From Phytobacter palmae (GTDB lineage Bacteria; Pseudomonadota; Gammaproteobacteria; Enterobacterales; Enterobacteriaceae), in assembly GCA_900112785.1 (NCBI GenBank), contig FONB01000002.1, positions 124,001-188,000 on the forward strand: 64,000 nucleotides of DNA, in the 5' to 3' direction. Below the pieces are notes generated by a model, which was not told where the DNA came from, did not search any database, and saw nothing but the letters and a program-made list of their open reading frames with translations. This document shows, piece after piece, positions 9,114-45,363 of the stretch; position 1 is the first letter of the stretch, and every line of letters starts with the position of its first letter. The translations under genes were made by a program, and so were the position numbers.

Positions 9114-9149
9114 AGCGATTATCCGTGTGCGTAAAAGGAGATGTTACAT

Positions 9150-9166
9150 TTTGTTTCTAGAACAAA
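9150..9166. promoter_or_regulatory. Inverted repeat upstream of cstA
   Basis: TTTGTT (9150-9155) and AACAAA (9161-9166) flank TCTAG, 36 bases upstream of the cstA ATG. It could be an operator or part of the leader. No known regulator motif was matched. Confidence 0.25.
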
Positions 9167-9470
9167 TCGCCAGTTTTAACAACATTGAAACATTGGAATT
9201 TCGTTATCGCGCCGGGCATTTATTTCAGTGTGCTACGCGGATCACTTATGCGAGGTATATGAGTGAGAATGGGGGGGAAGAATGAGAGGGGGAAGCGGGT
9301 TTGGATTTTGGGGAAGGGTGCGGCCTGTTCCCCTCACCCTTTCCCTCTCCCCCAGGCTGAGGAATCCCCAGGAATATGACATTTTACAGCGATAACGCAG
9401 CGCAATAAGAATAATACCGTCACCGCGATCACAGGGTCCGGCTGAAAATCGATGAGACGTTGACGGCTGA

Positions 9471-9634
9471 CCGGGGCCGCCCGCAGGAAAGCGGGCGGAG
9501 GGGATAGCCTGCAAGGATGTAGGCTGGTCCCCGACCCGAAAGTCAGACGACATAAGTCGAATGCACCGCGCCAGCGGCGATTTTCCTGGCCGGGAGCCCG
9601 GGTCGCCAGGGCGGTGGCGGTGAACCGCCCTGGC
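9471..9634. ncRNA. Structured GC-rich element, possible C4-like phage antisense RNA relic
   Basis: The 643-base gap 9114-9756 has no convincing gene but holds a dense run of hairpins. CCGCCCGC/GCGGGCGG (9477-9484 with 9491-9498) has an AGGAAA loop. GGGGA/TCCCC (9500-9504 with 9528-9532) encloses AGCCTGC/GTAGGCT. CCGGGAGCCCGG (9590-9601) is palindromic. GCCAGGGCGGT/ACCGCCCTGGC (9605-9615 with 9624-9634) is a perfect 11-bp stem. Consecutive GC hairpins of this kind recall the C4/P4 CI immunity RNAs of P1- and P4-type phages. The strand is not clear. The flanks (9300-9360, 9700-9750) carry the CCCTCACCC..CTCTCCC repeat; 9168-9300 holds nothing I recognise. Confidence 0.4.
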
Positions 9635-9756
9635 ACGTTCACAGGTTCTGGTGTTACAGAAAAGCAAGGAACATAAGGTGAACGGAATGCCCCTCAGAGC
9701 CGCATGTTCCCCCCCTCACCCTGCCCCTCTCCCCGGAGGGACGAGGAGCAGTTCCA

Positions 9757-10170
9757 CTACCCCATCACCGCTGTACTCAACCGGCAGGTACAGCAGCGCC
9801 GTCCCTGCTCATCAAACACCACAATCTCCCAGCTCTGGTTCAGACGCCCCAGATGCAGTGGCTGGCAGACGGCACGCACTTTACCCTGTGACACCGCACG
9901 GTGATGGGTGGCATTCAGTTCAGTTCCCACCACACACTGACCATCGACAGTCATCATGTATCCGGCCATTGACCCAAGCGTTTCCGCCAGCGCGGCGGAA
10001 GCTCCGCCATGCAGCAAACCAAAAGGTTGATATGTGCGGGCATCCACCGGCATTTCGGCTTCCAGCACATCATCACCCAGACGGGTGTAGACAATCCCTA
10101 AATGGTCGACCAGGGTACGGGCACTGGTGGCATTGAGTTCATCAAGCGTTAAACGACGCTTCCAGATCAT
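9757..10170 (-). CDS. entH: EntH, enterobactin proofreading thioesterase (YbdB)
   Basis: This 137-residue hotdog-fold thioesterase has the catalytic segment [18 protein letters not shown], with His54 and the catalytic Glu63 at the positions used in E. coli EntH. It frees EntB and EntF carrier domains from wrongly loaded aryl groups. The ATG directly abuts the entA stop codon (10171), so it is the last gene of entCEBAH. It faces the structured element at 9471-9634. Confidence 0.95.
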
Positions 10171-32904: not shown

Positions 32905-32950
32905 TTTATCGGTTTGGCCTGGGTTTCTCAGGCCTCAGATAACCGATAAA
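32905..32950 (+). terminator. Long stem-loop after the sugar permease gene
   Basis: TTTATCGGTT (32905-32914) pairs perfectly with AACCGATAAA (32941-32950), and GGCCTG (32916-32921) with CAGGCC (32929-32934). The stem begins two bases after the stop codon and should end or protect the importer transcript. Confidence 0.7.
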
Positions 32951-33093
32951 ACCACCAGAGTGGATGGAACGGCGTAGATACTGTGAACGTCTTCAACCTT
33001 TTTAGCCACGGCTGATTCGTTTTCCCGCATGACCACCACAGCGACATCTGTGTGCCCCCTGGCGCAGAGCGTGCAGCGAGGGGTTTGAATCCA
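32935..33093 (-). pseudogene. Remnant of a phage Icd-like (host cell division inhibitor-like) gene
   Basis: The frame reads CTLCARGHTDVAVVVMRE followed by NESAVAKKVEDVHSIYA, which resembles the C-terminal part of the Icd-like/Ash-type proteins that litter enterobacterial genomes. The upstream part of the frame is repeat-derived (LPLPRGEGWGEG), so no intact gene is present. It fills much of the 320-base gap between the permease and the regulator gene; the remainder holds repeats. The homology is from memory of the family and needs a search. Confidence 0.4.
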
Positions 33094-33136
33094 CGCTGAA
33101 ATCGGTGAGATGCAGACCCGATTCCCCTCACCCCAG

Positions 33137-33200
33137 CCCTCTCCCCGGGGGAGAGGGAGAAAACCGGTCGTAGTCCGGGTAAGCGCAGCGCACCCGGGAC
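33137..33200. repeat. GGGGAGAGG palindrome and REP-like palindrome
   Basis: CCCTCTCCCC/GGGGGAGAGGG spans 33137-33157. GTCCGGGT (33173-33180) pairs with ACCCGGGAC (33192-33200) around GCGCAGCGC. Both lie just past the end of the SorC-type gene. Confidence 0.6.
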
Positions 33201-39315: not shown

Positions 39316-39477
39316 TCAGATTAGCGACTTCTTCGGTTCGTAAGCGAGACTAGCTTTAAACTCAATACCACGTTGCCTGTAGCTCATCTCGCAAAGCGAG
39401 TCGCGTACTAACAGCGTGAAACCCAGTGCCGTTATACACAGCACCACGATCGCCACCAGGGCGTACTTTGTCAGCAT
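39316..39477 (-). CDS. Hok-family type I toxin (HokE-like), copy 1
   Basis: This 53-residue protein has one membrane helix ([20 protein letters not shown], 5-24), the conserved Cys after RDSL, and the tail [12 protein letters not shown]. It matches HokE closely but has three extra residues (SLI). The start is the ATG at 39477; an in-frame upstream ATG (39513) would give a Mok-like leader fusion, as in other hok loci. Hok peptides depolarise the inner membrane when freed from Sok control. It lies in a direct repeat and is probably the duplicate, since copy 2 is nearer E. coli HokE. Confidence 0.9.
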
Positions 39478-39481
39478 GTCA

Positions 39482-39570
39482 TTGCCTGCGTGCAATAAAG
39501 AGACTAACATCCAACCTGTCCAGGGTTCGGATGTAAGCCTCAGGTTGATAACACTATCTCCTGGGGCTTT
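39482..39570 (+). ncRNA. Candidate Sok antisense RNA and promoter, copy 1
   Basis: Opposite to hok, a promoter-like pair TTGCCT (39482-39487) and TAACAT (39505-39510) with 17-base spacing would start an RNA near 39517, antisense to the hok leader. AACCTG (39513-39518) can pair with CAGGTT (39541-39546). Exact ends are not known. The remaining leader to 39695 is part of the repeat; 39696-39873 is AT-rich promoter DNA of the importer. Confidence 0.5.
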
Positions 39571-39873
39571 CACCTTTCTGAACCCTGCAAATGCCTGGCT
39601 CAGAAAGCCTCAGGCACCCGCGAGAATGCTACCCGTTTACTTCCCTGCAGACGAATAAAGCTGTATTTCTATCCAGCTAATTTCTCTTTTTCAGAAAAGA
39701 TAAAAAACGCTAAAACCCGGACCGCTTTTTCGGCTTCATTTTCATAGCCAAATAATCTGGTTTATTCCCTAAGCGCATAAATAAAGACGAATTTAAACTT
39801 TAAGAAAAATCGGAAGCAGCCTAATTTAACGATACAAAATAATCACACTTAATTAACTTTACAGGGATCTCAT

Positions 39874-44973: not shown

Positions 44974-45126
44974 CTACTTCTTCGGTTCGTAAGCGAGAAC
45001 AGCCTTAAACTCCGTATCCCGTTGTTTGAACGTCATCTCGCAAAGCGAGTCCCGTACCAACAGCGTGAAACCCAGTGCCGCCATACACAGCACCACGATC
45101 GCCACCAGGGCGTACTTTGTCAGCAT
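44974..45126 (-). CDS. hokE: HokE-type toxin, copy 2
   Basis: This 50-residue protein has the exact length of E. coli HokE, which lies between entD and ybdK there too. It has one membrane helix (residues 5-24), Cys31 after RDSL, and the C-terminal [12 protein letters not shown] identical to E. coli. The start is the ATG at 45126; an in-frame ATG 11 codons upstream belongs to the leader. The position and tail suggest this is the ancestral copy. Confidence 0.92.
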
Positions 45127-45130
45127 GTCG

Positions 45131-45220
45131 TTGCCTCCGTGCAAAAAAGAGACTAACATCCAACTTGTTCAGGGTTGGGATGTAAGCCTCAGGTTGATAA
45201 CACTATCTCCTGGGGCTTTC
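45131..45220 (+). ncRNA. Candidate Sok antisense RNA and promoter, copy 2
   Basis: TTGCCT (45131-45136) and TAACAT (45154-45159), spaced by 17 bases, are the same promoter elements as in copy 1. AACTTG here replaces AACCTG of copy 1, and pairing with CAGGTT is kept through a G-U pair, which suggests the RNA fold matters. The RNA ends are not known. Confidence 0.5.
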
Positions 45221-45363
45221 ACCTTTCTGAACCCTGCAAATGCCTGGCTCAGAAAGCCTCAGGCACCCGCGAACATCCTAACCTCTTCATTTCCTTTGCA
45301 CGAAAGAAAAGCTGTATTTATATCCAGTTAACTTCACTTTTCAGAATAGGTTCAGGCGTGACG

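Follow-up and report, generated by a model that had tools for sequence, protein, structure and literature searches.

A TRIP1-family repeat in the cstA-entH gap of Phytobacter palmae, with an RNA-like fold and CsrA-type hairpin loops among its relatives

The gap between cstA and entH in a 64,000-nucleotide stretch of the Phytobacter palmae genome (hereafter, the window) holds a strongly structured, multi-copy repeat unit of ~300 bases (9390-9690), which is almost certainly a Phytobacter copy of the TRIP1 family or superfamily. That the element is a mobile repeat is well supported. The fuller account, in which a non-autonomous mobile repeat encodes a CsrA-binding RNA, is in our judgement evenly poised.

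Extent, copies and family of the repeat

For the + strand of 9400-9680, the predicted folding energy is -132.5 kcal/mol, whereas 200 dinucleotide shuffles average -103.4 kcal/mol (sd 5.0; z = -5.86) and none of them is equally stable; the - strand folds more weakly (z = -4.49). The first-pass annotation had described several hairpins at 9430-9660 with no sound reading frame, possibly a multi-copy noncoding element. The hairpins were recovered, with perfect stems of 11 and 8 bp and further arms (Table 1). The element is present within those limits, but its real extent exceeds them, with the core at 9436-9594 and a 3' part that runs to ~9687. The absence of a sound ORF was also confirmed, as the two ORFs that span the element (141 and 102 aa) are both antisense. 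Neither has a match in NCBIfam or Pfam, and a single match to PHROGs was at chance level (E = 0.22). With antisense ORFs only and no convincing family match, a protein-coding reading was rejected.

Table 1 Features of the repeat unit and of a related copy in the window
Feature	Position	Strand	Basis or remark
Left REP-like repeat, CCCCTCACCCTTTCCCTCTCCCC	9330-9352	+	Direct repeat of 9712-9734, 91%, 382 bp spacing
5' part of repeat unit, GGCTGAGGAATCCCCAGGAAT...TTTTACAGCGATAAC...	9353-9435	+	Common to other Phytobacter copies; partly in Leclercia and Enterobacter copies
Weak promoter-like site, TTTACA-18-AAGAAT	9383-9412	+	Within 5' part
Conserved structured core (model R1)	9436-9594	+	cmsearch, 169.2 bits; 24 of 46 pairs changed on both sides
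Long-range closing stem, GAAAATCG (9444-9451) / CGATTTTC (9578-9585)	9444-9585	+	Perfect inverted repeat, 126 nt apart
Hairpin H1, 8-bp perfect stem (9477-9484/9491-9498), loop AGGAAA (9485-9490)	9477-9498	+	Perfect inverted repeat
Hairpin H2, 7-bp stem (9506-9512/9519-9525), CsrA-site-like loop AAGGAU (9513-9518)	9506-9525	+	Read from sequence
11-bp perfect hairpin (9605-9615/9624-9634), outside modelled core	9605-9634	+	Relatives keep stem; sequence partly covarying
3' stem GTTCAC (9637-9642) / GTGAAC (9678-9683), then GGAA	9637-9687	+	Conserved family-wide
Right REP-like repeat	9712-9734	+	Direct repeat of 9330-9352
Truncated TwoAYGGAY-type (type II) copy, then directly a REP-like repeat	32973-33145	+	Earlier read as an Icd-like remnant

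Variants of the 3' stem in the family include GCTCTG..GAGCGCAA, and the 3' ends of 127 copies are GUGAACGGAA-like in 101 and GAGCGCAA-like in 18. No intrinsic terminator of the element was found, nor a conserved upstream promoter; promoter scores are slightly above those of shuffles, and their position is not fixed.

The multi-copy nature of the element holds well beyond what the sequence alone could show. By blastn, a second copy with 92% identity was found in the same genome, and R1, a covariance model of the 158-nt core, finds three copies there, the third being diverged. Congeners yielded more blastn matches, with 9 in P. diazotrophicus DSM 17806 and at least 18 in P. ursingii ATCC 27989T. 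R1 counts were 10 in P. diazotrophicus, 28 in P. ursingii, 19 in Entomohabitans, and 36 in genome G013. Of 149 Enterobacteriaceae genomes sampled, 47 contained copies; the copy counts in this search are lower bounds because at most 20 candidates per genome were scored.

The TRIP1 repeats of E. coli were reportedly described by Rudd in 1999. They are GC-rich, intergenic repeats of about 265 bp, several per genome, which are reported to fold stably into a 'double Y' and have been assigned no function (PMC10888264). At the published K-12 coordinates (NC_000913.3; PMC10888264), R1 matches TRIP1a (915016-915281) with 164.5 bits and TRIP1c (2229122-2229394) with 163.0 bits; TRIP1b, which lacks 125 internal bp, gave no R1 match, as expected. 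The TRIP1a score is not independent because the sequences used to train R1 included a TRIP1a orthologue, whereas the homology by blastn is. By low-identity blastn, 4,430 of 5,426 complete E. coli genomes carry diverged copies on the chromosome. The best matches, in the tauA-mmuM and yegH-asmA gaps, have 74-76% identity to the window copy over 84-89%, and others lie at lysO-aqpZ and proX; K-12 has only a remnant at yegH-asmA. A near-identity search of E. coli returned no copy because the family is ~75% identical. With a more sensitive query, 1-10 matching places were found per E. coli genome, compared with 3-28 in Phytobacter. The element thus shares sequence and structure with K-12 TRIP1a and TRIP1c, as well as an intergenic site, repetition within genomes and variability between strains.

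REP-like repeats flank the window copy on both sides (9330-9352 and 9712-9734), and four REP-like matches with three or fewer mismatches were found in the window, where 0.03 were expected. Exact copies of the REP-like pattern CCCTCACCCNNNCCCTCTCCC number 9 in the window's genome and 91 and 92 in the congeners, with none for the reversed control. The number of TRIP1-type copies is also lowest in the window's genome (3, versus 10 and 28). In 9 of 10 Phytobacter copies the aligned 3' end is followed by a REP at a distance of 20-22 nt; in a wider set, 57 of 119 copies have a REP-like sequence at their borders, as the window copy does. The orthologous gap of P. diazotrophicus (G001) has one REP and lacks the element, so the insertion is polymorphic, and that of P. 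ursingii has neither. No REP-associated transposase was found in the window's genome; its four Y1_Tnp matches all represent one near-identical IS200-like protein and are without REP flanks. A plasmid origin was considered and rejected, as the 14 matching records are all typed non-mobilizable and several are chromosome-sized.

The element occupies 61 gaps in the named genomes. Convergent gaps account for 33 of these, tandem gaps for 27 and a divergent gap for 1, whereas the other gaps at the same loci divide into 45, 149 and 78 (classes from simple ORF calling, in which short ORFs across the core were ignored). The orientation of the element in tandem gaps is random, with 15 sense and 12 antisense cases. 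Such a distribution would be expected of a repeat that is tolerated at gene ends and excluded from promoters.

Conserved fold, hairpin loops and kinship with TwoAYGGAY

The fold was derived from an alignment of 19 diverse cores, in which RNAalifold predicted 46 pairs, 24 of them with compensatory changes on both sides; 95.4% of the cells pair in this consensus. Its covariation score was 0.389, compared with 0.130 for shuffled alignments and 0.04-0.07 for slid structures. The closing helix is paired in all 19 sequences, though it is mostly invariant. Applied to the window, R1 reports the core (Table 1) and no other real match. Across 108 distinct copies, the paired columns contain 101 G-U and 37 A-C cells, an excess that points to an RNA folded from the + strand of the window.

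Two hairpins of the core carry the loops of most interest. An ANGGA hexaloop is present at H1 in 101, at H2 in 86 and at both in 84 of 106 distinct copies, and these loops stay while the hairpin stems vary: mean entropy is 0.15 bits in the A and GGA loop columns and 0.94 in the other unpaired columns, with the N positions free. ANGGAN hexaloops are the ligand of RsmE in NMR structures, and the SELEX consensus of CsrA is RUACARGGAUGU (PMC7652899), which the H2 form of P. ursingii copies, CUACAAGGAUGU, matches at 11 of 12 positions. CsrA-type loops are thus a property of the family, and H2 of the window copy (AAGGAU) conforms as well. Its H1, however, has only AGGAAA where the family consensus is AGGGAU, so the window copy may be a weakened member. 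Judging from these loops, typical members could bind CsrA, a reading that we hold neither more nor less probable than its opposite. In E. coli, the cstA leader is recognised as a target of CsrA (PMC7652899). The element is situated upstream of cstA (stretch 9114-9435 of the window) yet is oriented away from that gene, and its position beside a CsrA-linked gene is probably a coincidence.

The family also reaches an RNA already in Rfam. In cmscan of relatives, matches to TwoAYGGAY (RF01731) adjoin TRIP1-family copies, and R1, which was not trained on TwoAYGGAY-type copies, detects them (e.g., L013 1753-1910, E = 6e-15). Above-threshold RF01731 matches fall on same-strand R1 matches in 18 of 19 cases, compared by eye (G004, 6 of 6; G091, 8 of 8; G045, 4 of 5). 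Given that R1 recovers TwoAYGGAY RNAs, the homology extends to the superfamily level, and TRIP1 and TwoAYGGAY appear to form a single superfamily. RF01731 had no match up to E = 10 in the window's whole genome, the window copy included, which is therefore not filed as TwoAYGGAY but is merely related to it. The two types frequently form head-to-head pairs whose cores are 48-94 nt apart, and such inverted pairs occur in many genera. Genome G013 has arrays of them at several chromosomal sites (L011, L017, L022, L027 and L032), with a period of ~640 bp. TwoAYGGAY was proposed as a CsrA-binding RNA in RMfam (PMC4333381).

Proposed mechanism and rival explanations

In the account that we consider best, the repeat would travel with, or insert beside, REP-like sequences in Phytobacter. 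Its + strand would give a folded RNA whose two ANGGA hexaloops, ~28 nt apart, could be bridged by a CsrA dimer; the transcript would come from a weak promoter of its own or from read-through of a neighbouring gene. Binding of CsrA by transcripts of several to dozens of copies might leave less CsrA free, or might shelter the transcript. While the repeat's mobility is well supported, we infer its transcription, the binding of CsrA, the effect of this binding and the moving agent. Counting against the account are the lack of a conserved promoter and of an intrinsic terminator, the AGGAAA loop of H1 in the window copy, which departs from the ANGGA form, and the random orientation in tandem gaps, which would fit inert DNA equally well. 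CsrB-type sponges have many CsrA sites, and the presence of only two per RNA here also counts against it, as does the search for a mobilising enzyme in the window's genome, which found none. The broader proposal, that the TRIP1/TwoAYGGAY superfamily consists of mobile, RNA-encoding selfish repeats that titrate CsrA, with copy number setting the level of free CsrA and each head-to-head pair supplying two CsrA-binding RNAs from a single site, is tentative, and we think it unlikely as a whole.

REP and REPIN elements are recognised in a single-stranded DNA form by an HUH (Y1) transposase, and the repeat could likewise be purely selfish DNA, its GGA loops being transposase contacts with no RNA function. 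This reading is favoured by the REP-like flanks at a fixed distance in Phytobacter, the head-to-head inverted pairs in many genera, the polymorphic insertion, the gene-end sites with random orientation within tandem gaps, and the lack of a conserved promoter. On the other side, the hexaloop of two different hairpins has the exact CsrA form, no REP-associated transposase was found in the window's genome, where the Y1 proteins look IS200-like and are without REP flanks, and the excess of G-U over A-C cells suggests selection on RNA, though G-T also pairs in DNA. We rate purely selfish DNA as somewhat unlikely. REP/BIME elements are also described as protectors of mRNA 3' ends or blocks to read-through, and the strong preference for convergent and tandem over divergent gaps (33, 27 and 1), together with the very stable fold, would suit a 3' UTR element that shields the end of the upstream mRNA or stops convergent read-through. 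A role of this kind is nevertheless very doubtful, as the element is antisense in 12 tandem gaps versus sense in 15, with the window copy among the antisense cases, and protection alone would need no conserved ANGGA loops.

The first-pass annotation had likened the element to a relic of the C4 antisense RNA of P1/P4-like phages, citing an Icd-like remnant elsewhere in the window. Several stem-loops within a short noncoding stretch do recall C4, but the comparison did not stand up to cmscan, which found no C4 at the gathering threshold in the window and, with the cutoff relaxed to E = 10, nothing for RF01695 in 9200-9800. The C4 model recognised a genuine C4 on another contig (G000:C8:10225-10312, 82.4 bits), which served as a positive control and is probably in a prophage. 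No similar record was found in the phage collection, and a phage origin of the element was dropped. For the supposed Icd remnant (32935-33093), comparison with NCBIfam, PHROGs and Pfam gave no match; the site instead holds the truncated type II copy of Table 1, identical at 138 of 150 bases (92%) to the 5' part of a copy on contig C17 and adjoined by a REP-like repeat at 33125-33145. With the Icd remnant unsupported and the true C4 and phage comparisons as described, a C4 relic is, judged by these models, vanishingly improbable. No Rfam family matched the window element above its gathering threshold, and weak matches to CC3664, microRNAs and RsmY in 9200-9800, all with sub-gathering scores, were taken as chance. 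Elsewhere in the window, two sok antitoxin RNAs (RF01794) were identified on the - strand (39466-39619 and 45115-45268; 94 and 102 bits), indicating two hok/sok-type loci.

Relation to known systems

TRIP1 has been in the E. coli literature since 1999 without a function, and TwoAYGGAY is an orphan of Rfam. Their kinship, the covariation-supported fold and the CsrA-type loops offer one hypothesis for both that can be tested in a laboratory strain. If mobile repeats do titrate a global regulator, the copy number of a strain would be regulatory variation that gene annotation misses.

The window element shares with E. coli TRIP1 a homologous core and fold, intergenic sites and several copies per genome, and differs in being ~75% identical, located at cstA-entH and flanked by REP-like sequences; the family also reaches 28-36 copies in other genera. 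With TwoAYGGAY it has in common two adjacent hairpins with GGA loops, and in relatives the Rfam matches agree in place and strand with copies of the family. The window copy is itself unmatched by RF01731, which represents a sister type that has diverged and is frequently found head to head with TRIP1-type copies. The resemblance to C4 (RF01695) goes no further than being a structured noncoding RNA; there is no model match and the two are unrelated. CsrB, CsrC and RsmX/Y/Z also present ANGGA hexaloops on hairpins, but they have many such loops and the element core has two, and the element consists of interspersed mobile copies known here from their sequences. REP/BIME and REPIN elements are similarly interspersed, palindromic, located at gene ends and found in inverted pairs, and REP-like sequences lie at the borders of the Phytobacter copies; the element is set apart from them by being about ten times longer and by its covarying, multi-stem, RNA-like fold.
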